Shown here one piece after another: positions 720 to 15,760 of a stretch of DNA of 20,195 nucleotides. How positions within the stretch are numbered: the stretch's first letter is position 1; each line of letters begins with the position of its first letter. Origin of the DNA: a virus; IMG/VR virus record IMGVR_UViG_3300032073_000350, positions 1-20,195 of that record. One strand, given 5' to 3'. The position numbers and the translations under genes were made by a program. A model generated the notes under the pieces. It saw only the letters and a list, made by a program, of their open reading frames with translations, had not been told where the DNA came from and did no database searches.

Positions 720-2024
720 TTAAAACCCGCTGTTTGATGTTTCAAATGAATACAGTGCATAACGCAATGCATCGGCCATATGAGATGCACGATTGTGTTT
801 CGGCTTCTCTCTTAAAAGGTTGGGATTAGGATCCCATTGGTACTGATCCAAGCATTGTAGAGTTTCCCTACAAAACTGATCAACTTGTAATCTATCGTTA
901 TCAACAATGCCTTCTACATGAGCTATTCCATCAAGCACTGATTTCTTCGCATTTACAGTACTAATATCATAGTTTTGAGCAAAGTCAAAACGAGTTTGCT
1001 GGGCTGCAGAATCAATGTAGATATAGTCTATATCCCACTTATCTATAAGTATTTGTATCTCGGATGCGTGTTGTTCTGTAGTTCTTTCTGCATCTAAGTA
1101 CTCATCTACTAAATAATACTTTTCTTCGTCCCAGTCATATCCAATAACACAGAATGCAGTAGGGTCTCTATACCCTACGTCAAGTCCTGCAAATATATCC
1201 ATGCTACTAGTATTTAATTCTTCGAAGTTTCCTACACACTTTTCAAAGTTAAAGTTCCAAACCTGACCTTCATATGTATTAAAGTCAGCTTCATACTCTT
1301 GCCGAAACTCAGCCTCGGACATACTTTTTCTAGCTTCCTGAATATCCGTTTCAGACATTCTAGGATTAGATCGATAGCTCGCTTTAATAGAGACCCACTC
1401 TGGAAAATCATCAACAAAACCTCTGTCAAAAAACTCAGCAAACCAGTTATTCCTTCCTCGAGGAGTAGAAATAAAAATTGCTTTTGAGTTATCCTTGTCA
1501 AGTGTGGGGCGCAAAGCTACATTGAACGCATCTTTACCATCTGCCAGAGCTGCCTCATCAAAAATAATTAGATCGTAGGACCTACCAACGCATGAGTCCA
1601 CTTGGTTAACTGAACCCATGCGTATCGTAGAGCCATTAGAAATCTCTATCACTTTATCTTTTGCGTTATCTTTAACTACTTCTAGATCAAAGTGTTTTAT
1701 GAGAGTTCTTTGCAAATCAAATGAGATTTGTGATAAGGCATAGTTAGGGGACATAATTAAAATATTCGAAGAAGGTACTAGCGATACAAGCTGACCAATA
1801 ATGTTAGCAATGTACGTTTTCCCCTGCCTTCGAGAAATAGCCGCGCATACAAACCTATACTTAGGATTGTTAATAGCATTAATGATTGCTTTTTGAGAAG
1901 GCAATGGCTCAATACCCAATAGATCCATGTAAGGTTCTACAGGTAGTTTTAAGAATTTATCTTCTTTGGAGTAATCACTGAGATAGTCAGAGACTATATC
2001 TTTACGGCTAATTTCAATTGACAT
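720..2024 (-). CDS. terL: Terminase large subunit (DNA-packaging ATPase/nuclease)
   Basis: A 434-residue motor protein that pumps DNA into the prohead and cuts the concatemer. The ATPase half has a Walker A variant SRRQGKT (residues 64-70) and a Walker B plus catalytic glutamate LIIFDEAA (152-159, D156 and E157). The motif FISTPRG (near 185) looks like the coupling motif. The RNase H-fold nuclease half shows its acidic residues in AGLDVGYRDP (about 285), YIYIDSAA (about 335) and HMADALRYAL (near the C-terminus). The length is normal for the family. The ATG at 2024 directly abuts the stop of the small upstream gene, so translation is probably coupled. It is separated from terS by almost 8 kb of cargo genes, which is unusual. 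Confidence 0.95.
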   Translation of the reverse strand: MSIEISRKDIVSDYLSDYSKEDKFLKLPVEPYMDLLGIEPLPSQKAIINAINNPKYRFVCAAISRRQGKTYIANIIGQLVSLVPSSNILIMSPNYALSQISFDLQRTLIKHFDLEVVKDNAKDKVIEISNGSTIRMGSVNQVDSCVGRSYDLIIFDEAALADGKDAFNVALRPTLDKDNSKAIFISTPRGRNNWFAEFFDRGFVDDFPEWVSIKASYRSNPRMSETDIQEARKSMSEAEFRQEYEADFNTYEGQVWNFNFEKCVGNFEELNTSSMDIFAGLDVGYRDPTAFCVIGYDWDEEKYYLVDEYLDAERTTEQHASEIQILIDKWDIDYIYIDSAAQQTRFDFAQNYDISTVNAKKSVLDGIAHVEGIVDNDRLQVDQFCRETLQCLDQYQWDPNPNLLREKPKHNRASHMADALRYALYSFETSNSGF

Positions 2025-2189: not shown

Positions 2190-2595
2190 AGTAGTATCCC
2201 TGTAGTAGCTTAACTAAGACAGTATTCCACCAGAAGAAGTGCTTAGAAAAAACATATCCTCGACCTTCGAGAAATTCTTTCGTGCACCACTCTTTTTGAA
2301 TATTGTCTAAGTATTCCCCATTATGGCGCAGAACTGCATGTCCTGTGCCGTGTACTTGACAATAACAAACTTTATATCCACCGAATATGAGATTCCAATA
2401 CATTTTTATGTAGCTTCTATTAGACGCCTCATACAAATATGTTAAGGAATAATCTTCACAATCGCCTTCAAAAGGTAATTGTTTCATCACATACCAAGCC
2501 TCTCTCTTTCCGTACTGATTCTTATCTGAAACGTACTTAAAGTTTTTGTTTAAATGAGCTAAAAACTCTTCCATGCTTATTTTCTGCTCATCCAC
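2155..2595 (-). CDS. Transglutaminase-like cysteine peptidase (BTLCP/LapG-like fold)
   Basis: A 146-residue protein with the Cys-His-Asp arrangement of bacterial transglutaminase-like cysteine peptidases: GDCEDYSL (C46), GTGHAVL (H86) and EYLDN (D97). The best-known member, LapG, cleaves a surface adhesin to release biofilm, but phage relatives are uncharacterised and LapG is longer. No signal peptide is seen. The C-terminal part is rich in Trp, Tyr and basic residues. It overlaps the EF-hand protein gene (19 bases) and the next small gene. It could process a phage or envelope protein. Family confidence is moderate and the substrate is unknown. Confidence 0.68.
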   Translation of the reverse strand: MDEQKISMEEFLAHLNKNFKYVSDKNQYGKREAWYVMKQLPFEGDCEDYSLTYLYEASNRSYIKMYWNLIFGGYKVCYCQVHGTGHAVLRHNGEYLDNIQKEWCTKEFLEGRGYVFSKHFFWWNTVLVKLLQGYYYARQRRIKGNT

Positions 2596-2894
2596 GCTGA
2601 GACTCCCATATATGCTCCAACAACACCTGCTTGAGCTATATAAAATAGCCCTAATAAGTCAGCTAATGCTGACACACGACTTTCAGTAACCATAGGAGTA
2701 AATAGTATTCCACTGAATATTATCATAGACCCCATTGCTACCCAAGCCATTCTTTTTTGCGCTTCGGACTTTTCCTCCCGAAGCTCAATCTCAAGCATTT
2801 CTTGAGATCGTTTTATTTCTTCGTCTGATACCACGCCATCATGATCCAAGTCAAATTCATCGTATCGAGAGTCTTGTTGAAATCTTTTTACCAT
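2577..2894 (-). CDS. EF-hand protein with two membrane helices
   Basis: This 105-residue protein carries one complete calcium-binding EF-hand loop, residues 15-26 (DLDHDGVVSDEE), with Asp at positions 1, 3 and 5, Gly at 6 and Glu at 12. A charged helical stretch (about 27-48) follows, then two hydrophobic segments (about 50-66 and 78-98). The topology, with a soluble calcium-binding head and a membrane hairpin, would suit a holin-like or structural accessory role, but nothing proves either. It overlaps the basic-protein gene upstream by seven bases and the peptidase gene downstream by 19. Confidence 0.72.
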   Translation of the reverse strand: MVKRFQQDSRYDEFDLDHDGVVSDEEIKRSQEMLEIELREEKSEAQKRMAWVAMGSMIIFSGILFTPMVTESRVSALADLLGLFYIAQAGVVGAYMGVSAWMSRK

Positions 2895-3196
2895 TTCACC
2901 TTATCCGCCCAATAAGCTGCGGACATCTTACCCTTAGCAATATTCTTAGCGTGTCGAGCTTTAAAACTCGCTCGCTTTTTTCTCATTGCTTCACTCTCAC
3001 CTTTCTTTGGCTTACCAGCAGTTTTTGCTCCCTGCTGGCCAAACCGAATAGTTTTAACTTTAGAGCCTACTTTGGCTACTACAATGTGAGACTTTTTAGC
3101 ATGCCCGGGCGTTCTTTTTGGTTTATTAAAACCTGAAACACCCGCACGTTTTACTGCCGGGTGCTTTTTTCTAGCGCTTTTTCTTTTTACGGCCAC
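2888..3196 (-). CDS. Small lysine-rich phage protein (DUF6321-like)
   Basis: About 102 residues, very basic. The C-terminal half contains FGQQGAKTAGKPKKGESEAM and ends in AYWADKVKW. I recall closely similar proteins from marine phages, annotated as a domain of unknown function (DUF6321, from memory). I chose the GTG at 3196 because GGAG lies eight bases upstream; a TTG at 3226 opens the same frame but has no good ribosome-binding site. The strong basic charge suggests DNA or RNA binding, possibly packaging-related given its place in the late operon, but that is inference. Confidence 0.7.
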   Translation of the reverse strand: MAVKRKSARKKHPAVKRAGVSGFNKPKRTPGHAKKSHIVVAKVGSKVKTIRFGQQGAKTAGKPKKGESEAMRKKRASFKARHAKNIAKGKMSAAYWADKVKW

Positions 3197-3271
3197 GTCT
3201 TCTTCTCCGCTTCTTTTTTCCTGCAACCTGTCGAGTGATGCCAGGAACCTTGGCTATGCTTATACCAGCCA

Positions 3272-3547
3272 CTAGCGTTTCCTACTCTTCTTTTTACGTC
3301 GTGCAAAAGTGCTTACATTAGTAGGTTTTCCGCCGGGATTACCAGCAGCTCTTTTTCGGCGAATTGCTGATTTTCTCTGAGAAGGGGACATGCTTGCCGC
3401 TTTAGATGCAGGAACACATTTTGGATATTTCTTTTTGCCTGCTTTATCTCGACCACACTTCTCGAACCCCCCGCCCTTTTTAGGGCGGGAAATATCAACC
3501 CAGTTCTCTCCGAACCATTTTGTTAAACCCCCACGAGGCTTTGCCAT
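3272..3547 (-). CDS. Small basic phage protein with a conserved Trp/Cys N-terminus
   Basis: 91 residues, starting MAKPRGGLTKWFGENWVDIS, with two cysteines (C32 and C44) in a Lys/Gly-rich core and a tail of Arg/Lys (RRKKKSRKR). It resembles a small family that recurs in marine phage and metagenome contigs, whose function is unknown to me. ATG at 3547 follows GAGGGAAG, a good ribosome-binding site. It is one of several tiny basic genes in a row, which may act on nucleic acid late in infection. Confidence 0.68.
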   Translation of the reverse strand: MAKPRGGLTKWFGENWVDISRPKKGGGFEKCGRDKAGKKKYPKCVPASKAASMSPSQRKSAIRRKRAAGNPGGKPTNVSTFARRKKKSRKR

Positions 3548-3558
3548 AGTTACTTCCC

Positions 3559-3720
3559 TCAGCCTTTTTTCTTACGCTTCTTCATAAGAGCTTTTTGAAG
3601 TGCAGGTGGCAACTTCTTCTGAGCAGCAGTCAAACCGCCCATAGACTTTTTCTTCTTTCCCTTGCCCTTTTTAGCAGGACGTCCTCTTTTACTTCCGTAA
3701 GTTCCTTTACCTCTTGGCAT
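3559..3720 (-). CDS. 53-residue lysine-rich protein
   Basis: ATG (3720-3718) to TGA (3561-3559). It starts MPRGKGTYGSKRGRPAKKGK and ends in a run of Lys/Arg. More than a third of residues are Lys or Arg, and the GRPAKKGK segment resembles an AT-hook-like minor-groove motif. The ribosome-binding site AGGAGAAG precedes the ATG. It fills the space between two genes of the same operon. A DNA-condensing or DNA-binding role is an inference. Confidence 0.62.
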   Translation of the reverse strand: MPRGKGTYGSKRGRPAKKGKGKKKKSMGGLTAAQKKLPPALQKALMKKRKKKG

Positions 3721-3825
3721 CTACTTCTCCTGACATTTGCAATTGTAACAAACTTCATTGATACAGTCTTTGCAATCTTTGCCGCAATGGCAGTTGTGTC
3801 CACATGCTTTGCATGATTTATCCAT
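3721..3825 (-). CDS. 34-residue cysteine-rich, metallothionein-like peptide
   Basis: ATG (3825-3823) to TAG (3723-3721). The peptide has nine cysteines and two histidines in 34 residues, spaced as CxxC, CxC, CxxC, CxxC and CxC (C5, C8, C12, C14, C18, C21, C26, C29, C31). This density and pairing is typical of small metal-binding proteins such as metallothioneins. Its ATG sits four bases after the stop of the upstream gene, and the downstream 53-residue gene starts directly after its stop, which supports translation. The role is unknown; it could buffer zinc or copper. Confidence 0.6.
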   Translation of the reverse strand: MDKSCKACGHNCHCGKDCKDCINEVCYNCKCQEK

Positions 3826-3828
3826 AGT

Positions 3829-4014
3829 TTAACCCATACGGTATTTACCGCCCTTGGCTTTGTAAGTTTTTACAAGCCATCCGTTTGCGTATGCTGAAGG
3901 ATATACAGCGAACTTTCTCTTTGTTTGAGCTTTAACTCTAGCATAAAGCTTTTTATTTGTTGGAACAGGACGCTTTTTCTTAGTGGCGGCCTTTTTGCGT
4001 TTGCGGACCGCCAT
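3829..4014 (-). CDS. Small basic protein with YPSAYANGWLV motif (DUF5872-like)
   Basis: 61 residues. A Lys/Arg-rich head (MAVRKRKKAATKKKRPVPTN) leads into KFAVYPSAYANGWLVKTY and a basic tail. The YPSAYAN-WLV motif belongs to a small uncharacterised family found in phages and algal viruses (DUF5872, from memory). The start is three bases downstream of the preceding stop. It is probably nucleic-acid binding because of its charge, with no direct evidence. Confidence 0.68.
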   Translation of the reverse strand: MAVRKRKKAATKKKRPVPTNKKLYARVKAQTKRKFAVYPSAYANGWLVKTYKAKGGKYRMG

Positions 4015-4017
4015 TAA

Positions 4018-4179
4018 TTACTCCTCTTCCTTTGGTTCTTGTTTTGGTTCTTGTTTTTTGAACGCTTCTTTTATTTTAGGCTGACCTAACCAAGCATTTG
4101 CTTCTTCTTCTGAAGTAAAAGCTTTTTTATCCTTGCCAGGTTGAGTAGCCCACCAAGTACCTCGTTTTTCATGAATCAT
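4018..4179 (-). CDS. 53-residue protein with Trp-rich head and Lys/Glu tail
   Basis: ATG (4179-4177) to TAA (4020-4018), with ribosome-binding site GGAGAG seven bases upstream. It begins MIHEKRGTWWATQPGKDKKA and continues into a helix and a repeated KQEPKQEPKEEE tail. The head looks like a small beta-strand domain that could read 'present a residue, add a helix', but I do not recognise a family. It is packed between the adenylate cyclase and the basic protein genes. Function unknown. Confidence 0.58.
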   Translation of the reverse strand: MIHEKRGTWWATQPGKDKKAFTSEEEANAWLGQPKIKEAFKKQEPKQEPKEEE

Positions 4180-4215
4180 AATTCTCTCCTACCGTGGCGC
4201 ACAGCGCCCAACAAT

Positions 4216-6048
4216 TTAAGTATTATAGTACGAATCACTCTCGAAGTCAAGACTTATTTTTGGTATGGTATATACAAGTACTCGTTCTGTCTTACCCTTA
4301 ACCGTAGTCTCTCCTAGTTTTTCGTACTTATATTCAGGGACATGTCTTTTAGTATTCCCTGATACTACTAAATCGGTTTCAAACTCTTTGCATTGCCCTT
4401 CTAGCCTAGAAGCAAGATTAACTGCGTCACCAATAACGCTATAGTCAAACCTACTACTAGAACCCATGTTACCGACAATACACGGTCCAGTATTGATTCC
4501 GATTCCCGTATTGATTTCAAAGCCTCTTTCGGTCCTGAGAACATTATTTAACTCCTCTAGTGCCTGCCTCATTTCTAGGGCAGCTTGTACCGCATGGTAC
4601 GCATGATCTGGATCGTCTAAGGGAGCATTCCAAAAAGCCATAATACAGTCTCCCATGTATTTATCTACAGTACCTTTATGTTTCAAAATTACATCAGTTT
4701 GGTTAGTAAGAAACTTGTTAATAAGCTCGACTAAACCTTCTGGATTGTCTTTGAATGTTTCTGAGATTGGTGTGAATCCTCTTATATCGCAAAAGAGAAA
4801 TGTCATTTCTCGTCGATCTCCACCAAGCTTTAAAAGCTCTGGATTCTTTTGCAATTTTGCCACCATCCCAGGATCTAAATAATGTTCAAACTGTTTCTTT
4901 ATTTGAAGACGCAACTTAAATTGAGTATAAAAATTAATAAAACTTGATACGGCCCACAGTACAAAAGCACTTATAACTATGAAGGACGCATCTAGCAAAA
5001 TTCCTGAGGTTGTAAAATTATAGTATACATATGAAACTGATCCTCCTATTGCAAGTAAAAGAGCAGGAACCGATAAGTATAACTTAAAAGAACAAACGGC
5101 TATGAGTACGAGAATACCTAGCAAAGCTAGTAACTCTGTTCCTTCCGTCCAGTTTGGTCTTGAAATATTATTTCCTTGTATAAGTGTGGAAATAGCTGCC
5201 GCTTGAATCTCATGCGGAGCTTTTAAGCCATCAGGTGTTGCTACTAAGGTGGACGCACCTTTAGCAGTCACACCAATTAAAACAATTGGATACTCAGTGG
5301 GATTTGTAATATAGTCTTTTGCTGACATTCTCGAAAAGTTCGTATTCCAAGTAGTCCAAATCCTGCCCCGTGCATCAGTATCAATTATAGGAAGATTTTT
5401 CACTCTAAGCTTTTCTACTCCAGTTTTGCCCGTCTTTATCGAATAAGATTTTGCTCCTACTATTGTTCTTAAAACTTCTAGGCCGAAAGAAGGGTAGATC
5501 TCGTTATCTATATTAAAAACAAGAGGCAGTCTTCGTACTAAACCATCAACTTCTGGGGCAGTAGATGTAATTCCATTCCCTTTCGCAGATTCTTCTATAG
5601 CCGGAACATTTGTTAAAACTCCATCGTACTTAAAAAGAAACGGTGTAGGATCTTCTCCCATTCTTGCAGTACCCACATGCGGGGGTCGTCCTACAAATGT
5701 AGAATTTGACGCTGCAGCCGAGACCACCACGTTCTCGGTATTAATACATTTTCCTAAATTTTTGTCTCCTCCAAATCTATCTTCCTCAGGAAATAGGACG
5801 GAAAACCCCACAACTTGTCCACCCAACAACTTACAGAAGATTTGTCGAGGCCAAGGCCATTGACCAAGTCTCTGTAAACTGTCGTCATCAATATCCACGA
5901 GTAAAATATTTTCATCCCCTATGGTAGGTAGGGTAGAAATAAAATAATCAAAAGTTTTTAAGCGAAGTGTTTCGACAGGTGCAGGATCCCAAGCCCTTAG
6001 TCCCACGAGTGCAGCAATTGTAGCTACTATGATAATAAATTTTTTCAT
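4216..6048 (-). CDS. CHASE2-domain class III adenylate cyclase
   Basis: A 610-residue membrane enzyme predicted to turn ATP into cAMP. An N-terminal signal anchor (about 4-18) is followed by a periplasmic CHASE2 sensor (about 25-300, with FDYF and WPWPR motifs), three membrane helices (about 305-321, 324-345 and 350-372) and a cytoplasmic cyclase domain (about 410-597). Metal-binding aspartates are D421 (FCDIRGF) and D467 (MGDCIM). K463 and S537 occupy the base-selecting positions, consistent with ATP. N544 and R548 in VNLASR are the transition-state residues. All key residues are present, so it should be active. Its ATG overlaps the fecR stop (ATGA), so the two are translated together. Sensor and cyclase pairs with FecR proteins are known in bacteria but not, to my knowledge, usual in phages. 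Confidence 0.9.
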   Translation of the reverse strand: MKKFIIIVATIAALVGLRAWDPAPVETLRLKTFDYFISTLPTIGDENILLVDIDDDSLQRLGQWPWPRQIFCKLLGGQVVGFSVLFPEEDRFGGDKNLGKCINTENVVVSAAASNSTFVGRPPHVGTARMGEDPTPFLFKYDGVLTNVPAIEESAKGNGITSTAPEVDGLVRRLPLVFNIDNEIYPSFGLEVLRTIVGAKSYSIKTGKTGVEKLRVKNLPIIDTDARGRIWTTWNTNFSRMSAKDYITNPTEYPIVLIGVTAKGASTLVATPDGLKAPHEIQAAAISTLIQGNNISRPNWTEGTELLALLGILVLIAVCSFKLYLSVPALLLAIGGSVSYVYYNFTTSGILLDASFIVISAFVLWAVSSFINFYTQFKLRLQIKKQFEHYLDPGMVAKLQKNPELLKLGGDRREMTFLFCDIRGFTPISETFKDNPEGLVELINKFLTNQTDVILKHKGTVDKYMGDCIMAFWNAPLDDPDHAYHAVQAALEMRQALEELNNVLRTERGFEINTGIGINTGPCIVGNMGSSSRFDYSVIGDAVNLASRLEGQCKEFETDLVVSGNTKRHVPEYKYEKLGETTVKGKTERVLVYTIPKISLDFESDSYYNT

Positions 6049-7133
6049 TGTTGTTTAATAGATATATAAATATCTCCTCCATTGTTGATAAGAATGTTGA
6101 AGGTTTCTCCACCATCATCAAGCTTGATCGTATAGCTAGTTCCAGCCATAAGTTCTAGTCTGGTAGTGTTCTCTACTTGTCTTTGTAATATTACTTGACT
6201 TCCGTCTATAAAGGTAGAGATTTGAGTCCCAGGATCAAAGCCCACGGCTGTCCCTGCAATGGAAAAGGCTGTATCCTCCTGTGGTCCTTCTTGTCTTTGT
6301 CTTTCTTTCTCCTTTTCCATTTCCTCAAAGACGTCAAGTAAGTCTCTTAAAAAGTCTACATCAAGTAAATCTATGTCTAATTCTGTAAACTCTAAGTTTT
6401 CTTCGTTTGCATCTAGTTGATCTTCTAGTAGTTCTACGTCTAGTCCATCAAAGTCTAGTAAACTTGTATTTTCTTTTGTTTGTTGAATAGTCTCTTCTTC
6501 TTCTTTGGGTGGTGAGACTATAAGCATATTGTCAATAAGTTCCAAGGTTATATCAAGTATCTTTGGAGACGACGGAGTATTTTCAGCCAAAGAAACAGTA
6601 GTGGCTTGAAAAGGCTTATTTAGGGTAACATCGCCCACCATAGAAGAAACAATAATTTCTCCTGAAGCATCTCCAAATTCATCGGGCAGTAGTATTATGA
6701 GAGTTCTTCCTAGCTCATCTACAGTTGCGGTAAAGTCAGTACCCCGAATAGCTATCTCTGCTGTAGGAGTACGAATCTTTATATTATCTTTATCTATAGT
6801 GCCGAGAGCACCAGTTATGAATCTTGCAGTTCCTGAAGCAAAAGTCAGAGCAAGTTTTGATTTGGTAGGATCTGGATCGTAGACAAACTCGTCTATTATA
6901 ATCTCAGAGTGTTCTGTAAGTTTGAGAACAGAATCGTCTAGAAATTCTAGTTCTATTCGACCTGCTGCGGTGCGAACATCATCGTAGCTTTCTATTCCAA
7001 AATCTAGAATAGCTTCGTTTTGTTCTTTGTCACGAAAAACGGCAGCATTACCAAATACATCAGTTATGCTGCCGATATTCGCACTAACAAGTTGTGGAGC
7101 CAGAACCAGACTGAATAATACAAAGAGTCGCAT
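6045..7133 (-). CDS. Secreted FecR-domain protein
   Basis: 362 residues with a signal peptide (about 1-18, cut after LVSA). A FecR domain follows (about 45-145): DDVRTAAGRIELEF, then FASGTARFITG, then IRTPTAEIAIRGTDF, the classic ending. In other bacteria FecR domains sit in the periplasm and relay signals or bind partner proteins. The rest is an unusually acidic linker (about 205-285, many Asp/Glu/Leu) and a C-terminal beta-rich part (about 290-360). The start at 7133 lies inside the last 50 bases of the curlin-like gene and gives a clean signal peptide, although no strong Shine-Dalgarno is present. Overlap with the cyclase start suggests it modulates the CHASE2 sensor (inference). Confidence 0.85.
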   Translation of the reverse strand: MRLFVLFSLVLAPQLVSANIGSITDVFGNAAVFRDKEQNEAILDFGIESYDDVRTAAGRIELEFLDDSVLKLTEHSEIIIDEFVYDPDPTKSKLALTFASGTARFITGALGTIDKDNIKIRTPTAEIAIRGTDFTATVDELGRTLIILLPDEFGDASGEIIVSSMVGDVTLNKPFQATTVSLAENTPSSPKILDITLELIDNMLIVSPPKEEEETIQQTKENTSLLDFDGLDVELLEDQLDANEENLEFTELDIDLLDVDFLRDLLDVFEEMEKEKERQRQEGPQEDTAFSIAGTAVGFDPGTQISTFIDGSQVILQRQVENTTRLELMAGTSYTIKLDDGGETFNILINNGGDIYISIKQQ

Positions 7134-7968
7134 TTGTTGAACTTGTCCCGCTTCCTGTTGTTGAGAAATTTATGAAATCATTGGCTCCGGTAGAAGATTG
7201 GTAAATACCAATATCCCAATAATCTCCTGTTACTGTAATAGTAGAGCTGTGGCCATTACCTGTAGTAGCACCACTATTGTTAATACCCACATAGTCAATC
7301 TGATTATTATCTCCTGTTACTTCCCAGTTTTGGAAAACCCACTTGGAGTTAATTACAGCATTTATGACGTTATCATCCCCATCTATTTCCCAATCTAAAT
7401 CCATGTCACTTGAATCAGCTGCAGAGATAGATCCCATGCTGTTCCAGGAGTTTAGTCCTGTGTGAGTTACTGCACTGGCTGCATTAAATACGATTGTATT
7501 ATCGCTTCCATCTATTTCCCAGTCTACAGTACCTCCGTTGGCATCTGCACCCACACCATAGTTTATAGTCTGAGTATTGTTGCCTCCAAGTATTGTGTTT
7601 GTCCAAGTAGTACTGTCAATATCATAAGTGCCGGCTGGATTCCACTGTCCTGTAAGAACATTTGTATCTCCTGTCCATATGAAACTAAAGTTAGAAGTAT
7701 TTGAATTTATATCGGCTAAAAACTTGTTGTTATCTCCAATCTGATCTAAATTTAAAACAATGTTACTACTGTTAAGTAGCATAGCATTATCAACGGTAGT
7801 AGTGTTGCTAGTATCCCCTGCAACAATGTTACCGTCTCCTAACTGTTCTATGTCTACTTGGGTGTTTGTTGTACCTGTTGTTGTTTGTGTAATATAAATC
7901 TGATTATCAACTGCGTAGGCTGAGCCAGCTACAAGTAATCCGAGTAATGCTAGTAATGAACGTTTCAC
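7084..7968 (-). CDS. Curlin-like repeat protein (putative amyloid fibre subunit)
   Basis: 294 residues with a signal peptide (about 1-19, SAYA). Two good curlin-type units occur near the N-terminus (VDIEQLGDGN at 38-47, LNLDQIGDNN at 72-81). Looser WEIDGxDN/WEVTGDNN units recur at about 150, 193 and 215. The protein is rich in Asn, Thr, Ser, Gly and Asp and poor in Lys, as amyloid curli subunits are. It ends with a two-cysteine tail (CIIQSGSGSTTC). It follows csgG immediately, sharing one base. Export through the CsgG pore and fibre formation on the cell surface is the family-based expectation. It is longer and more divergent than CsgA/CsgB, so the assembled form is uncertain. Confidence 0.8.
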   Translation of the reverse strand: MKRSLLALLGLLVAGSAYAVDNQIYITQTTTGTTNTQVDIEQLGDGNIVAGDTSNTTTVDNAMLLNSSNIVLNLDQIGDNNKFLADINSNTSNFSFIWTGDTNVLTGQWNPAGTYDIDSTTWTNTILGGNNTQTINYGVGADANGGTVDWEIDGSDNTIVFNAASAVTHTGLNSWNSMGSISAADSSDMDLDWEIDGDDNVINAVINSKWVFQNWEVTGDNNQIDYVGINNSGATTGNGHSSTITVTGDYWDIGIYQSSTGANDFINFSTTGSGTSSTNATLCIIQSGSGSTTC

Positions 7969-8765
7969 TACTGTTCTCCCAGTTGAAAGGCCCAGAAGCC
8001 TTTCTCTTCTCCTTCGATAACTGTTTGGTAGACCGCAGTTTCAATAGCTTCTCTTAAAGCTATTGCACTACTCTCATTTTCAGTTGCTCCGGCTTCCAAT
8101 TCAACTAGTTGTGTACCGGCTTCTACAAATCTGAAAACGTCCCCTGACACTCCGACGGAAAGAATCTTTTTGGTCACAAGGACCTCTATTAATATTTCTC
8201 CTGTTAGAACTGAGACAGTGCGCAAAGATACAGTTACGGTATCTTCTCTAAATTCTCGGGAAGCTCCTATGCCTAATGTTCTTGCCCCCATCCCTCCTGT
8301 TCTTAAGTTTGTTTCGTAATCTACTACCCCACCTTGCATTAAAAGTCCTGCAAACAGCAGTGGGCCCAATTTGTTGTCTTCTTCAAAGTCTCTTCGAGTA
8401 CTTCTTATTATTTGACGCTCTCGTGTTATATTATCAATACCAACACGTTCTACTACTTTAAAAAACTTGCCTCCTGCGGCATGTTTTAGTGCCCGTATCA
8501 AGTATGCCTCGGGCGCTGTAGTTATGGCTGTAGAGAATAAAGCAAACTGTGAGTTGCTTTTTCTCTGGCCTGTCTTATCACCAAAAGCACCTGAATATAT
8601 CGCTATCACAGGCTGTCTGCTTGCTGGTTGTAAGTTGTATAGTTGATCTACCTTTAGAGTTGCTACCTCTGCGTTTTTTGTTGAATATGCTATCTGGCCA
8701 GTAGCACAGCTAGCCATCATCGTCGTAAACGTTAAACTGATCAACAGGCACTTCAATTTGTGTAC
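7968..8765 (-). CDS. csgG: CsgG-like outer-membrane curli secretion lipoprotein
   Basis: About 265 residues. From the GTG at 8765 the first 20 residues form a typical lipoprotein signal ending in the lipobox MASC; the same frame opens earlier at an ATG (8810), which would add 15 residues and is also possible. The mature part follows the CsgG pattern: VIAIYSGAFGDKTGQRK near the start, LIRALKHAAGGKFFKVVER, then TVSLRTVSVLTGEILIEV near the C-terminal third. CsgG forms a nonameric pore that exports curli subunits. The gene overlaps the end of csgF and touches the curlin-like gene, giving the order csgF-csgG-curlin. Size is close to the usual 277 residues. Confidence 0.9.
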   Translation of the reverse strand, partial: VHKLKCLLISLTFTTMMASCATGQIAYSTKNAEVATLKVDQLYNLQPASRQPVIAIYSGAFGDKTGQRKSNSQFALFSTAITTAPEAYLIRALKHAAGGKFFKVVERVGIDNITRERQIIRSTRRDFEEDNKLGPLLFAGLLMQGGVVDYETNLRTGGMGARTLGIGASREFREDTVTVSLRTVSVLTGEILIEVLVTKKILSVGVSGDVFRFVEAGTQLVELEAGATENESSAIALREAIETAVYQTVIEGEEKGFWAFQLGEQ

Positions 8766-9234
8766 ATAGGTCGCTTTCTTCACAGCTTTCAAAAGTTCCG
8801 TCTTCACCATATTTACCAGGATAAGTCTCCATAATGAGCCTACCGTCTAGCATATAGTACCTGATATAATAATCCTCGCTTGTAAAGTAAAATCTGCTCT
8901 CGAAGTCGTCTCCGAGCGCTCCACCTTCAAACAGACTTTCGACTAACTCTTTTGAAAGTCTAGAATATATCCTGCTTTCAAAGTTGCGAAGAAACTTGTT
9001 AATAGTGCTGTTTTCTTCTTCGCGCTCCAGTTCATCGAGTCTTGCTTGAATTTCTGCTTGCAGCTCTTTTTTTCGGTTTGTCTCTTGATTCTCTATCGTC
9101 AAGTAATGACTTGATGTGTTGATCCCGCTGAACGACGGGCTCTTGAATTTGTGAGTCATCTGGTCTGCTTCCGCTATTGTCGGAGCTATTAATAAAGCTA
9201 TTATCGCTATTACCACTTTTATGCCGTTTTTCAT
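8710..9234 (-). CDS. csgF: CsgF-like curli assembly factor
   Basis: 174 residues from ATG 9234 (an upstream ATG at 9249 is in frame but would spoil the signal peptide). A signal peptide (about 1-23, IAEA) precedes THKFKSPSFSGINTSSHYLT, which matches the conserved start of mature CsgF that plugs into the CsgG constriction. A charged helix (about 60-80) and a C-terminal domain with YYIRYYMLDGRL and two cysteines (ESCEESDLCTQ) follow. CsgF ties secretion to nucleation at the cell surface. The first 203 bases overlap, in another frame, the coding sequence of the membrane protein upstream, and its end overlaps csgG. Confidence 0.84.
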   Translation of the reverse strand: MKNGIKVVIAIIALLIAPTIAEADQMTHKFKSPSFSGINTSSHYLTIENQETNRKKELQAEIQARLDELEREEENSTINKFLRNFESRIYSRLSKELVESLFEGGALGDDFESRFYFTSEDYYIRYYMLDGRLIMETYPGKYGEDGTFESCEESDLCTQIEVPVDQFNVYDDDG

Positions 9235-9454
9235 ATTCAAGCACCACATTTACTTTTTGCTGCAAACGAATTAAATCATTGTCAAGCATTCGTACTTGGT
9301 CAATGACTTTGATCAAGCTTAAGTGAGATTTTTCTAACTTTGGCGTGATCTGTTCTGTAACGTATTTCCAAATGTAGTAGATATAGTAGCCCATACCTAC
9401 TGCCATAACTATTGGAAAACCAAACTTTTGTATAGCATCAATCGCGTCTTGCAT
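9032..9454 (-). CDS. Membrane-anchored coiled-coil protein, paralog of the upstream gene
   Basis: 140 residues from ATG 9454, chosen because this start aligns with the paralog encoded at 9438-9716; ATGs at 9466, 9502 and 9511 are alternatives. One membrane helix (about 13-30, GFPIVMAVGMGYYIYYI) leads to a probable coiled coil (about 40-75, with VRMLDNDLIRLQQKV) and a long polar tail rich in Ser, Asp, Lys and Arg. The tail is read from the DNA that also encodes the start of csgF in another frame. Topology resembles an inner-membrane spanin or holin-associated protein, which is inference. Confidence 0.62.
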   Translation of the reverse strand: MQDAIDAIQKFGFPIVMAVGMGYYIYYIWKYVTEQITPKLEKSHLSLIKVIDQVRMLDNDLIRLQQKVNVVLEYEKRHKSGNSDNSFINSSDNSGSRPDDSQIQEPVVQRDQHIKSLLDDRESRDKPKKRAASRNSSKTR

Positions 9455-9716
9455 CTTCCTTGCCATCCGCTCTTGCAATTCTATCAATGTCAGGATTGAC
9501 ATTAAGCGCATGACTTACAAGAGTGTCTATCTTTATAAGATCGTTGTTCATAGTCTTCACTCTATTCACTAAAGAATTAGTAAAGTTGTCAACCATGTTG
9601 ACTTGTTCAACGACTCCTTCCAAAATATATTTTAGAGTCTGAAAAATAAAAAAGCCCATAACAAGAGCAGCTGCAATAGGTGCTCCCACTTGGGCTATGA
9701 GGTCGAAAATCTCCAA
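9438..9716 (-). CDS. Membrane-anchored coiled-coil protein (holin-like candidate)
   Basis: 92 residues starting at a TTG immediately after the TAG of the upstream gene. One hydrophobic helix (about 9-32, GAPIAAALVMGFFIFQTLKYI) is followed by a heptad-like region (about 38-72). It matches the next gene along its length: VMGFFIF/GMGYYIY, VKTMNNDLIKIDTLV/VRMLDNDLIRLQQKV. The pair is therefore a tandem duplication. A small single-helix membrane protein next to terS suggests lysis or a membrane-associated packaging role, but no catalytic motif is present. Confidence 0.7.
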   Translation of the reverse strand: MEIFDLIAQVGAPIAAALVMGFFIFQTLKYILEGVVEQVNMVDNFTNSLVNRVKTMNNDLIKIDTLVSHALNVNPDIDRIARADGKEDARRD

Positions 9717-9923
9717 CTAGTGCTGTATTAATATAGCGGACAATATGCCTAATAAAAACATAATTGTCGTGGCTCCTCCAGCTAATATTAGTTGGTGCAT
9801 TTTATCTAAGCGCGCCTCAACCCCCTCCATGCGATTGTAGATAGTTTTCCATCTTTCCTCACATTGTGCATCGTGAGTGTGAAACTGTAGTTTTAACTCT
9901 TGAAGCTCGTCATCATTCAACAT
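9717..9923 (-). CDS. Tail-anchored small protein, XhlA-like
   Basis: 68 residues with a charged helical N-terminal part (about 1-43, including HTHDAQCEERWKTIYNRMEG) and one C-terminal membrane helix (about 46-65). That coiled-coil plus tail-anchor layout is like XhlA haemolysin/holin-accessory proteins of phages. It overlaps the end of terS by 11 bases and is directly followed by the two membrane paralogs, making a three-gene membrane cassette. Lysis function is inferred from layout only. Confidence 0.7.
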   Translation of the reverse strand: MLNDDELQELKLQFHTHDAQCEERWKTIYNRMEGVEARLDKMHQLILAGGATTIMFLLGILSAILIQH

Positions 9924-10374
9924 CTTTTAACAACTTATCCATGAGCTTTCCATAATTGCCCTGGCCAAAGGGTAACCCTTCGTTAATCTGTACGTTATTT
10001 TGTGTTCTTACGTTACTGTTCTGAGCTTTTTCAATATCTGCTTGGGCCTTGATCTCGTCCATTCTCATCTTGTGAGCCATTTGCAATAAGTCGGCCAAAT
10101 CTTTGTTAGAGTATACTCCACTTTCTTTAGCTTCTTCAAGCTTACTTTCAATCATCTCGTCCAGTAAACTTGCAATATTATTTTTATTGCGATACCCCAT
10201 GTCCAAATACACTGTATCAATGTACTTTTTCACTTCACGCTTGTTTAACAACTCTACTACTTTATTTTCGTTAACGCCTAGTTGTTGGACAACTGCACGA
10301 ATATTACCGAAAGTAAGGTATGAGTTTGCTACTTCAAGTCCCTCTGGGGAAATTGTGGTTAGTTCTTTAGCCAT
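9913..10374 (-). CDS. terS: Terminase small subunit (probable)
   Basis: 153 residues. An N-terminal helix-turn-helix-like part (about 12-50, with NIRAVVQQLGVNENKVVELL) is followed by helices containing DMGYRNKNNIASLLDEMI and SGVYSNKDLADLLQMAHKMR, then a polar C-terminus ending in LMDKLLKDVE. This arrangement (DNA-binding head, oligomerising helices, C-terminal tail that contacts TerL) and these motifs match small terminase proteins of marine tailed phages as I remember them. It is the first gene of the long leftward operon. A consensus promoter ends six bases before the ATG, so the mRNA may be leaderless. Confidence 0.75.
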   Translation of the reverse strand: MAKELTTISPEGLEVANSYLTFGNIRAVVQQLGVNENKVVELLNKREVKKYIDTVYLDMGYRNKNNIASLLDEMIESKLEEAKESGVYSNKDLADLLQMAHKMRMDEIKAQADIEKAQNSNVRTQNNVQINEGLPFGQGNYGKLMDKLLKDVE

Positions 10375-10380
10375 GGAGAA

Positions 10381-10409
10381 ATTATAGAAGATAGCGACTG
10401 TAAAGTCAA
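10381..10409 (-). promoter_or_regulatory. Promoter of the terS-curli-terL operon
   Basis: Minus strand TTGACT (10409-10404), 17-base spacer, TATAAT (10386-10381), preceded by an A/T-rich AAAAATAATTC block. The start of transcription would fall at or next to the A of the terS ATG (10374). Confidence 0.72.
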
Positions 10410-10437
10410 GAATTATTTTTGAGTTGGTAGTAAAATT

Positions 10438-10457
10438 AAAGGGGCCGAAGCCCCTTT
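10438..10457 (-). terminator. Rho-independent terminator after the TorF-like gene
   Basis: On the minus strand AAAGGGGC-TTCG-GCCCCTTT forms an eight-base-pair stem with a stable UUCG loop, followed by TAATTTTA. It separates the outer-membrane-protein gene from the terS operon promoter. Confidence 0.8.
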
Positions 10458-10465
10458 ATACAGTT

Positions 10466-11086
10466 TTAGAAATGATAAAATAAAGATACAGCGTGTGCTG
10501 AGTCTTCGATTTCAGTTTCTTTTTCTGTGTATGTGTAAGAAACACTGAAGTTCTTCCAAGTTTTACCAACGGAAACTCCATATAAAAACTCTTTATCTTC
10601 ACCACGTCCTACAAACCCTTCGAGATCTAAGGGCAAGCCCCAATCTGCTCCAACAGCAGCTGAACCTTGATAATACGAAGTTTTATTTTCGATATCTCGG
10701 AAAACTGTAGCGGAAAGAGGGCCTACAGAAATAGAACCATATACTTCTGCAACGTCATCAGCAAAAGCAAGGTCATCATCCATCCAAGAATACTTCAGAT
10801 AGCCAATATCATAGCTAACATACTCTCCAATGTCTGAAGAGAATCCGGCCGAATAGTTTACTTCGTAATCTTTTTCGCCAGTGAGGTTTACTTGACTTGC
10901 CCAAACATCAGCATAAAATCCCGCATGTTCAACACCGATATTACCTTGAAGTGCAGCCTCTCCCATAGTCTGGGTGGCTCCCCTCCAAACGTAGTTTGAA
11001 GTAGCGCCAAGTGAGCCTGATACCTCGAGGGCAGCGGCGGGGGCGGAAATAGCTAAAAGAGCTATAAAGGATAGTACATATTTCAT
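10466..11086 (-). CDS. TorF/Gcw_chp-like outer-membrane beta-barrel protein
   Basis: 206 residues from ATG 11086 with AAAGGGAGAA upstream. An in-frame ATG at 11143 would put 19 extra residues before a perfect signal peptide and is rejected. The signal peptide (about 1-19, PAAA) is followed by LEVSGSLGATSNYVWRGATQ, the hallmark of the Gcw_chp/TorF putative porin family, then alternating beta strands and a C-terminal SLFYHF, ending in the phenylalanine that the outer-membrane assembly machine recognises. The length fits the family. It has its own promoter and terminator, so it is a single-gene unit. Possible roles are altering uptake, blocking a receptor or changing permeability; none is shown. 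Confidence 0.85.
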   Translation of the reverse strand: MKYVLSFIALLAISAPAAALEVSGSLGATSNYVWRGATQTMGEAALQGNIGVEHAGFYADVWASQVNLTGEKDYEVNYSAGFSSDIGEYVSYDIGYLKYSWMDDDLAFADDVAEVYGSISVGPLSATVFRDIENKTSYYQGSAAVGADWGLPLDLEGFVGRGEDKEFLYGVSVGKTWKNFSVSYTYTEKETEIEDSAHAVSLFYHF

Positions 11087-11161
11087 AATTTTCTCCCTTT
11101 GGTGAAAAGAAAACGGGGGCAAACAGTATGTTACCCCCTCCATTTTTTCTCCACTTTTGGT

Positions 11162-11224: not shown

Positions 11225-11503
11225 TTATCCCCTAATATCAGCAAGCCCTTCTTCTCCGCCAAGAATTGGAGGACCAATAATTACTGGATCATCTCGCATT
11301 TCTTCTGGAAACCGAACTTTCTTTGCTTCCCACTCTTCTTGAGTTCTGCACTGATATCTTTTTTTGTTGTTCCAATAATTAGAGTAAAACTTCCCACACC
11401 ACTCCCCTTGATCGTTCATTTTTAATTTGAACTCTTCTTTTTCTTCTATTGCAAAAGACGTAAGAGGTGCTACCACTAATGCTGCTGCCAATAAAACTTT
11501 CAC
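11225..11503 (-). CDS. Small secreted protein with two cysteines
   Basis: 92 residues from a GTG at 11503, preceded by AAGGAGA. The frame also opens at 11551, but that codon lies on the edge of the promoter -10 and is not usable. A short signal peptide (MKVLLAAALVVAPLTSFA) gives a mature protein of about 74 residues: acidic/basic start, a Cys pair (EWCGKFYSNYWNNKKRYQC) that could form a disulfide, and a Pro/Gly-rich end. It is probably periplasmic. I do not recognise the family. It is a monocistronic unit next to the outer-membrane barrel gene, and may also act on the envelope. Confidence 0.7.
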   Translation of the reverse strand: MKVLLAAALVVAPLTSFAIEEKEEFKLKMNDQGEWCGKFYSNYWNNKKRYQCRTQEEWEAKKVRFPEEMRDDPVIIGPPILGGEEGLADIRG

Positions 11504-11551
11504 TATGTTCTCCTTTTTGTGAGCTTTGAAATCACCTTGATTTCGGAACAT

Positions 11552-14374: not shown

Positions 14375-15016
14375 ATGAATAAATTAGAAACCCAACAGGC
14401 TCGGCTCAACCAAATCGTAATGTCAAAAGACTTCGGTCCGACTGCGATTGTGCTTGAAGGTCGTGATACTGCGGGCAAATCATCTACGATCCGAGAGGTT
14501 ACCCACTACTTGCCTGTAAGCAAATTTGGTGTACAGCTATCTGCCAAACCTAGTCAAAAAACTATGGAAAGCTGGCTAGATTACTGGGGTACCAAAATGC
14601 CGTCAGGCAAGCAGATGGTATTCTACGACCGATCTTGGTACTCAAGAGCAATGGTACAAAAGATCAATGGCTGGTGCTCTAACGACCAGTATCAGGATTT
14701 CATGGAAGATGTAAATTTTTGGGAGAAAGCACAAGCTCCTGTTCGAATGGTTAAGTTCTGGCTGTCTATCAGCGAAGAAGAACAGGCTAGCAGATTGGCT
14801 GAGAGGAAAGTATCCCCGCTCAAATTTTGGAAGTTGTCCCCAAACGACGAGCGAGCATTATCATATTACGACGAGATGACCCTACTCAAAGAAAGGGTAT
14901 TGACAACTACTAACAATTGGTATACAATTAACTACAACAACAAGCCAGAGGGACGACTAGCTCTTATCACAAAACTCTGCGACATACTGGAGACAAAAAG
15001 TGAAAAAAGTTCTTGA
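14375..15016 (+). CDS. ppk2: Polyphosphate kinase 2 family protein
   Basis: 213 residues; PPK2 enzymes move phosphate between polyphosphate and nucleoside mono- or diphosphates. Walker A is EGRDTAGKSS (28-37), matching the PPK2 pattern EGRDAAGKGG. The second motif YDRSWYSRAMV (84-94) parallels the family's NRSWYNRAGV, with D85 and R86. The lid SRLAERKVSPLKFWKLSPND (139-158) has the expected Arg/Lys set and the WKLSP signature. It is slightly shorter than typical PPK2 (about 230-300) but lacks no core motif. Likely role: making ADP/ATP or GDP/GTP from polyphosphate for phage synthesis; class cannot be assigned by eye. The end of the gene overlaps the next promoter. Confidence 0.88.
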   Translation: MNKLETQQARLNQIVMSKDFGPTAIVLEGRDTAGKSSTIREVTHYLPVSKFGVQLSAKPSQKTMESWLDYWGTKMPSGKQMVFYDRSWYSRAMVQKINGWCSNDQYQDFMEDVNFWEKAQAPVRMVKFWLSISEEEQASRLAERKVSPLKFWKLSPNDERALSYYDEMTLLKERVLTTTNNWYTINYNNKPEGRLALITKLCDILETKSEKSS

Positions 15017-15077: not shown

Positions 15078-15407
15078 ATGGCAGATTCAGCAGTTAACTA
15101 CACTGAAGAGATGGTATCAACCATGGTCGATCAGTACGAAGCTGAGCCTACAATGGCAACTGTAGAAGCATTAGCAGGACAGTTCGACAAGCCAAAGCGC
15201 AGCATCATTTCTAAGCTGTCTAACATTGGCATCTACATTCCTGCAAGCAAGGGCAAAACCAAAACTGGTGCTCCTGTAGTTCGCAAGGACGAGCTGGTAG
15301 CTGAGATTCAAGCATCACTTGGTGTGGAAGTACCTACTCTTGCCAAGGCTACTAAAGGTGACCTAGAAAAATTGTTGGGAGCACTTTCAATAGTATCTAC
15401 ACAGTAA
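15078..15407 (+). CDS. Putative DNA-binding protein, paralog 2 of 3
   Basis: 109 residues from ATG 15078 with GGGAGA upstream; the frame opens earlier at 15000, but that would begin inside the PPK2 gene and before this promoter. It has NYTEEMVSTMVDQY, then a helix-turn-helix-like part ending in KPKRSIISKLSNIGIYIPA (about 44-62), a basic TKTG linker and a C-terminal helix pair (KDELVAEIQASLG; KGDLEKLLGAL). It is the clearest member of the three-copy family in this window. A regulator of phage transcription is a reasonable guess. Confidence 0.75.
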   Translation: MADSAVNYTEEMVSTMVDQYEAEPTMATVEALAGQFDKPKRSIISKLSNIGIYIPASKGKTKTGAPVVRKDELVAEIQASLGVEVPTLAKATKGDLEKLLGALSIVSTQ

Positions 15408-15410
15408 TTC

Positions 15411-15760
15411 GCTGAAACTAAAGTAGGGTTGAGTGGACGGGGGTTCGATTCCCCCCTCCTCCACCATAAGAGCATCAAGGTGCTTTTATGATGGGGGAGC
15501 ATGGTTTCGACAAGCAATCTCAGGTTAGTGGAGAATCGGTGAGCAACCTACCGTAAATGGAAGAACCTAAATTAAACGCAAACGATGACGTTTATTCTCT
15601 AGCTGCATAAGCTAGCGGGCAAGGCCTCTCGGCTTGTTATCCAAAGGAGAGGCACTCAGAAAGCATACTGGGAAGACCGCGACCGTCCCCTGCGTAGGGA
15701 TGGATATGTCAGAAAAGATCGGGGAGAAGCAGATCGTGACCCCAGCCCAGTATGTTTTCT
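15411..15760 (+). ncRNA. ssrA: Circularly permuted tmRNA (ssrA)
   Basis: tmRNA rescues stalled ribosomes and tags the protein for degradation. Here the 3' acceptor piece comes first: T-arm GGGGG-TTCGATT-CCCCC, acceptor strand CTCCTCC and encoded ACCA end at 15466. The 5' piece begins at 15493 with GGGGGAG, which pairs with CTCCTCC and contains the G3-U70 wobble that marks alanine charging. D-loop-like TGGTTTCGAC follows. A 26-base segment between the pieces forms a nine-pair hairpin (ATAAGAGCA/TGCTTTTAT) likely removed by processing. The tag frame is 15578-15610. A 13-pair helix (15660-15672 with 15746-15758, one G-U) encloses the later pseudoknots. Outer ends are approximate. Permutation is typical of Alphaproteobacteria and cyanobacteria. 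Confidence 0.93.
15578..15610 (+). other. tmRNA tag frame, peptide ANDDVYSLAA
   Basis: Resume codon GCA at 15578, then ten sense codons and TAA: A-N-D-D-V-Y-S-L-A-A. It ends in the LAA protease signal and resembles the E. coli tag ANDENYALAA; alphaproteobacterial tags are usually longer. Confidence 0.92.

Follow-up and report, generated by a model that had tools for sequence, protein, structure and literature searches.

A curli-type secretion cassette with FecR and CHASE2 adenylate cyclase genes between terS and terL of T5-like phages

The IMG/VR virus record IMGVR_UViG_3300032073_000350 (20,195 bases, linear and probably a fragment; this whole stretch of DNA is hereafter called the window) carries on its minus strand a cassette of seven genes, sm1-sm2-csgF-csgG-curlin-FecR-CHASE2 cyclase (4216-9716), flanked by the terminase genes terS and terL of a marine T5-like phage. 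The genes are arranged head to tail, and neighbouring ones overlap or touch at their ends. The module itself is known from other phages, and its presence in a T5-like group at a fixed slot appears to be new. Judged from its sequence, this is a cargo cassette that has about an even chance of serving, at a late stage of infection, to secrete a curli-type fibre onto the infected cell, while FecR, the CHASE2 domain and cAMP would act as an envelope sensor.

The features of the region are listed in Table 1. The first-pass annotation had described five genes here, csgF, csgG, a curlin-like gene, a FecR gene and a CHASE2-adenylate cyclase gene, between the two terminase genes. All five are present at that place and on that strand, and their names and grouping are borne out by the profile searches: CsgF, CsgG, FecR and both CHASE2 and cyclase domains score above the Pfam curated cut-offs, and the curlin is recognized through its family profile. 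The block is larger than proposed, since it also includes the pair of small genes that precede csgF. The cyclase, FecR, CsgG and CsgF proteins each fall into an unnamed PHROGs family. The tmRNA is of the permuted type according to Rfam, with a score just above the betaproteobacterial cut-off, which is not decisive for the host.

Table 1. Genes and promoter-like sites of the cassette region, in the order of reading
Feature	Coordinates	Strand	Evidence and remarks
Promoter P1, TTGACT-17-TATAAT	10381..10409	-	Near-consensus sigma-70; directly before terS; consensus match, not a mapped start
terS, terminase small subunit (T5-like)	9913..10374	-	phrog_3802 7.4e-37; ~40% identity to T5-like TerS; upstream flank, first gene of the transcript
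sm0, small protein with C-terminal membrane helix	9717..9923	-	Left cassette edge; also in cassette-free relatives
sm1, small membrane protein	9438..9716	-	phrog_18771
sm2, sm1 paralogue with longer C-terminal tail	9032..9511	-	phrog_18771 4.2e-26; sequence alignment
csgF, adaptor	8710..9249	-	Pfam CsgF 6.8e-11; start probably at 9234, as in the first-pass annotation
csgG, outer-membrane lipoprotein pore	7968..8810	-	Pfam CsgG 5.6e-43
Curlin-repeat protein, fibre subunit	7084..7968	-	Signal peptide; C-terminal Cys pair conserved in its group
FecR-domain exported protein	6045..7133	-	Pfam FecR 2.5e-11
CHASE2 sensor with class III adenylate cyclase domain	4216..6048	-	Pfam CHASE2 2.5e-38, cyclase 1.1e-22
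Promoter P2, TTGACT-17-TATAAT	4222..4250	-	Spans the last cyclase codons, reads towards terL; right cassette edge; consensus match, not a mapped start
DUF5872 small basic protein	3829..4014	-	Pfam DUF5872 6.4e-10; right flank; adjoins sm0 in cassette-free relatives
terL, terminase large subunit (T5-like)	720..2024	-	Pfam Terminase_6N 3e-16; 48% identity to phage My1 TerL

The carrier is a T5-like, Demerecviridae-related phage, judging by its T5-type packaging, head and tail genes and their order. The window itself holds TerS, TerL and a portal fragment, and the remaining T5-type genes come from sister contigs, on which homologues of the portal, protease, major capsid, tail terminator, major tail and tape-measure genes of Pectobacterium phage My1 stand in the same order as in My1. 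In My1, terS and terL abut, whereas in the window the cassette lies between them. Besides the window, 39 T5-like IMG/VR contigs, found in three scans and derived from many data sets, carry cassette genes upstream of terL. The cyclase gene ends 1.3-4.5 kb before terL and on the same strand in all 38 contigs with both genes, and the order terS-cassette-terL was found in each of 11 complete intervals. Among the 50,697 records of the phage collection, the window TerS is matched by 902 and the csgG by only seven (two of HTVC008M, four of Melnitz and one of 1.5 kb), so no isolated T5-like phage in this collection carries the cassette.

Cassette-free relatives (e.g., L066, L067, L071), with a TerL 87% identical, have a clean empty site, where a small ORF begins within ~20 bases of the sm0 stop and DUF5872 comes next. 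In the window, an ORF similar to this small one begins ~35 bases past the cyclase stop. A T5-like group that is less closely related (L042-L045 and the majority of the loci from the last scan) has an sm0-like gene after the cyclase, which indicates the same region and not the exact same junction. In cassette-free T5-like phages, either a spanin pair or another set of genes for secreted proteins can also occupy the terS-terL interval; this slot serves as a site for envelope-directed cargo.

Both edges of the transcribed block are associated with promoter-like sites. P1 is kept in most relatives, and a terminator-like hairpin (10437-10458) lies upstream of it. Of 39 cassette loci, 37 have a P2-like site (at least 11 of 12 consensus positions) at the cyclase stop, which in the relatives almost always lies 3 bases past the stop codon, against an expectation of about 0.04 per 200 bases; at the sm0-DUF5872 junction of cassette-free relatives, a promoter was found in 0 of 13. 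Such a conserved site suggests that terL probably has its own start. Thus, the proposal of the first-pass annotation that the cassette is transcribed with the terminase stands for terS and probably does not hold for terL.

The predicted curli secretion parts comprise the CsgG pore, the CsgF adaptor and, at the family level, the curlin subunit. The lipobox Cys35 of CsgG is invariant in the alignment. The constriction residues Tyr51 and Asn55 of E. coli are not kept, so the export properties may differ. A PDB search started from the CsgG alignment was set aside, as E. coli CsgG was a part of that alignment and the search was not independent. The N-terminal pore-binding segment of CsgF aligns with that of E. 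coli CsgF. The window curlin alone gave no Pfam match, and it contains only two full Q-x-G-x-x-N motifs, the repeat pattern being evident at the family level: several positions of this motif are invariant in the family alignment, five of 23 family members match Curlin_rpt of Pfam (best 8.6e-6), and among 177,635 PDB sequences, the family profile had its best match in a major curlin subunit (3.6e-4) and its second best in a curlin-repeat protein (1.7e-3). The GxxN motif occurs 10 times in the window protein compared to 3.9 times in composition shuffles, of which 12 of 5000 reach 10. Its AlphaFold2 model is all-beta (pLDDT 75, pTM 0.78), and Foldseek returned weak beta-helix matches only. CsgE and CsgD are not universal beyond Gammaproteobacteria. 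Neither the CsgE gate nor the CsgD regulator was matched among the 20 window proteins scanned, and CsgC was not found in the window; the phages studied previously are likewise without CsgE and CsgD (PMC9599517).

The small genes sm1 and sm2 travel with the pore genes. At least one of them accompanies csgF in all 39 loci having at least 900 bases upstream, and in the complete T5-like terS-terL intervals of the first set, they were present in 3 of 3 with csgG and in 0 of 27 without it. According to the published model, one or two 'histidine kinase' genes always precede viral csgF (PMC9599517). In HTVC008M and Melnitz, this place is occupied by sm1/sm2 homologues, and the window sm1 is 55% identical to the gene preceding csgF in both. 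However, kinase models did not match any of 19 members of the sm1/sm2 family, and no model used identified a kinase at this place in the window. A weak match to the PHROGs holin family phrog_4898 was obtained for 10 of the 19 members (best 7.6e-5) and a weak one to Pfam YvrJ (0.011), while the family profile retrieved only coiled-coil noise from the PDB. The two gene products may be described as holin-like predicted membrane proteins, and such short genes lacking a kinase match cast doubt on the 'histidine kinase' of the published model.

Structures resembling the FecR model include the PupR signalling domain (6ovk) and an anti-sigma-like protein (4m0h), both with a probability of 1.0. Its C-terminal domain, with a strand pattern and an IxIxQ end, was considered as a mini-curlin, and this idea was dropped when its profile was compared to that of the curlin family and the probability was 1.4%. 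The cyclase has a predicted active site with a complete class III residue set, namely two metal-binding Asp, Lys/Asp for adenine and Asn/Arg for the transition state; the residues D421, K463, D467, D541, N544 and R548 are kept in 29 of 29 (N544 in 28 of 29). Of 38 FecR loci whose sequence extends far enough, 13 have no detectable cyclase, which means that signalling is not always needed and that this arm is optional in some lineages. A search of 13 phage records, two of them complete genomes, gave no cNMP-binding domain that might act as a phage cAMP receptor, so the cAMP would have to act on a receptor of the host.

The first-pass annotation regarded the combination of pore, adaptor, fibre subunit and signalling pair as new, which was wrong. 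A 2022 paper described these components together in podophages and myophages of Pelagibacter (PMC9599517), and the module is also seen in the genomes of HTVC008M and Melnitz. The same gene order, i.e., small upstream gene(s), csgF, csgG, curlin, FecR and adenylate cyclase, is shared by the type VIII secretion (T8SS)/curli module of SAR11/OM43 myophages and HTVC023P-type podophages (PMC7029224, PMC9004378, PMC9599517). The window differs from this pelagiphage module in its T5-like carrier, in the terS-terL slot and in the promoter at the cyclase stop. It has one curlin gene, whereas Melnitz and the 117-kb T5-like contig G010 have two. Compared to the E. coli curli system (csgDEFG-csgBAC), the window CsgG and CsgF are 34% and 20% identical in alignment, with a conserved CsgF N-terminus; CsgE, CsgD and CsgC are missing, the CsgG constriction differs, and FecR and the cyclase are added. 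In the literature search, we found no report of the module in T5-like or other siphophages, of a fixed terS-terL slot with a sigma-70 promoter at the cyclase stop, of the holin-like, non-kinase nature of the 'histidine kinase' genes, of chromosomal Caulobacterales csgF-csgG-curlin-FecR-cyclase operons, or of a repeated lysozyme/spanin neighbourhood of the cassette.

The closest cellular CsgG relatives belong to such operons. In the CsgG tree, the phage proteins share a single clade with those of Caulobacterales L170 and L172 (100/99), and ordinary bacterial CsgGs fall outside it. The five-gene order csgF-csgG-curlin(-curlin)-FecR-cyclase was found in Caulobacteraceae MAGs (L170/L171) and in Hyphomonas sp. 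TMED17 (L172, a 705-kb contig). Unlike the window cassette, these operons lack sm1/sm2 and are chromosomal; in L170 and L172, which were examined over their whole length, the neighbouring genes are chromosomal ones. They are rare exceptions to the statement that FecR and cyclase do not occur within bacterial T8SS operons (PMC9599517), and among 299 Caulobacterales genomes, a phage-like FecR was present in one copy, which was already known. In the combined CsgG, FecR and cyclase tree, the T5-like terS-terL cassettes group with the podophage type (100/100), and G010 groups with HTVC008M and Melnitz (100/100), so T5-like phages have probably gained the cassette at least twice. The podophage-type loci (L005-L041/L052), which we infer from contig size and gene layout to be HTVC023P-type podophages, thus probably have their nearest cassette relatives in T5-like phages and not in myophages; the branching inside this joint group is weak.

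A surface fibre or pore made late in infection, as the first-pass annotation had suggested, is plausible. According to the fibre reading, the cassette would be transcribed together with terS from P1, and P2 at its 3' end would restart transcription for terL. Curlin and FecR would be exported to the periplasm, from where curlin would exit through the CsgG-CsgF pore and, late in infection, form a curli-type fibre on the outside; sm1 and sm2 would be partners of the cassette in the membrane. The periplasm is the side that both FecR and the CHASE2 sensor are expected to face, and they would watch the envelope or the periplasmic curlin and set the level of cAMP acting on the host receptor. The likely benefit would be aggregation or coating of infected cells, either for the capture of new hosts or for the exclusion of rivals, before and at lysis. 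We count in favour of a fibre the apparently complete pore-adaptor-fibre set with predicted export signals, as well as the intact cyclase residues, the fixed position, the putative promoter at the cyclase stop and the related chromosomal operons. The identical order in T4-like, podophage-type and T5-like phages, moreover, means that the whole set is kept together. Counted against it are the changed Tyr51/Asn55, the lack of CsgE, the FecR loci missing the cyclase, the lysis genes often adjoining and the observation that no clumping occurred in Melnitz infections (PMC9004378).

The main rival, extending a proposal in PMC9004378, is that the cassette is an accessory lysis or exit module, in which CsgG-CsgF pores would breach the outer membrane, sm1/sm2 would act as holin or antiholin partners, and FecR-cyclase would time lysis. 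We consider this somewhat unlikely, albeit the neighbourhood gives it real support. In addition to the weak holin matches of sm1/sm2, the genes immediately before sm1 in G010 code for an endolysin (GH108) and a spanin pair, a lysozyme homologue lies at most ~1.5 kb from the cassette in 19 non-T5 loci, spanins occur near it in six loci, and a spanin pair is among the possible contents of the cassette-free interval. However, the 27 cassette-free T5-like relatives lack both sm1/sm2 and csgG and so must lyse otherwise, podophage-type loci are often without a nearby lysozyme, and a pore alone leaves the retention of curlin, CsgF and FecR unexplained.

Less probable still is that FecR-CHASE2-cyclase forms a phage transmembrane checkpoint, whereby FecR would read curlin or pore assembly in the periplasm, and the cAMP output would time lysis or alter host physiology; if true, it would be a phage-borne second-messenger circuit coupled to a secretion pore. 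It is very unlikely that the CsgG-CsgF pore takes up large nutrients or cofactors during infection under regulation by curlin and FecR (suggested in PMC7029224 and PMC9599517): the missing CsgE gate, the changed constriction and the role of FecR in iron signalling (PMC9599517) fit uptake, but the curlin subunit is kept in the family with invariant repeat positions, and a transporter or binding protein is absent from the cassette. Misassembly of host DNA onto a phage contig, which the first-pass annotation had named as a possible refutation and for which related operons on bacterial chromosomes could provide a source, has virtually no chance of being correct and is rejected, since the same arrangement recurs on the 39 independent sister contigs, the base composition of the cassette resembles that of its flanks, and relatives have clean empty sites.

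The fibre reading and its rivals alike concern an envelope module that is common to unrelated ocean phages, T4-like, podophage-type and now T5-like, and its maintenance by such phages suggests that it probably pays for itself during infection. T5-like phages offer a clean comparison, in which close relatives either have or lack the cassette at a single site, and a promoter marks the cassette edge. The rare bacterial operons could be either donors or recipients of the module, and both its function and the direction of transfer become testable.

The region between terS and the small basic DUF5872 gene, which holds the cassette in the window, is a cargo hotspot. In three cassette-free T5-like relatives (L073, L077 and L058), the same slot is occupied by another block, encoding signal-peptide proteins, whose last product is a membrane/coiled-coil protein and whose PHROGs matches are solely to unnamed families. 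The Gcw_chp-type gene of the window may also be cargo, since a homologue in another cassette locus, L301, sits between the cassette and the spanins.

Features of the window and of the cassette-free relatives
Feature	Location	Remarks
Small basic protein cluster (DUF5872, phrog_23735, phrog_7595) with EF-hand membrane protein	window 2577-4014	
Short hairpin	window 4170-4216	GGCGC-TGT-GCGCC; immediately 3' of cyclase stop
Gcw_chp-type outer-membrane protein gene; small exported protein gene	window 10466-11143; 11225-11551	directly upstream of terS
ORF resembling polyphosphate kinase 2 (by eye)	window 14375-15016	sole PHROG match weak, thymidylate-kinase
Permuted (two-piece) tmRNA gene	window 15362-15701	Rfam tmRNA_permuted, 115 bits
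Alternative slot block	L073:3875-7044; L077:4512-7750; L058:681-2672	signal-peptide proteins

Pairing in the hairpin behind the cyclase gene was retained despite base changes in two further loci (GGCAC-TCC-GTGCC in L053 and GGCAC-TCT-GTGCC in L004), and the hairpin would lie at the 5' end of the transcript predicted from P2, a promoter-like consensus match reading towards terL. In the neighboring small-protein cluster, the EF-hand protein had a weak holin-superfamily match, and the phrog_7595 protein is common to many marine phages. The kinase-like ORF is present in relatives as well. The permuted tmRNA, with the tag ANDDVYSLAA, is a possible clue to the host; the 117-kb cassette-bearing T5-like contig G010 likewise carries one, with the tag ANDNFVASENYALAA.

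In L315 and L336, the small paralogous membrane-protein genes sm1 and sm2 lie on the opposite strand, downstream of the cyclase, with their linkage to the cassette nonetheless kept; they seem to be functionally tied to it. The cassette was also found in L333, a virus contig of 250,519 bases, perhaps a jumbo phage.
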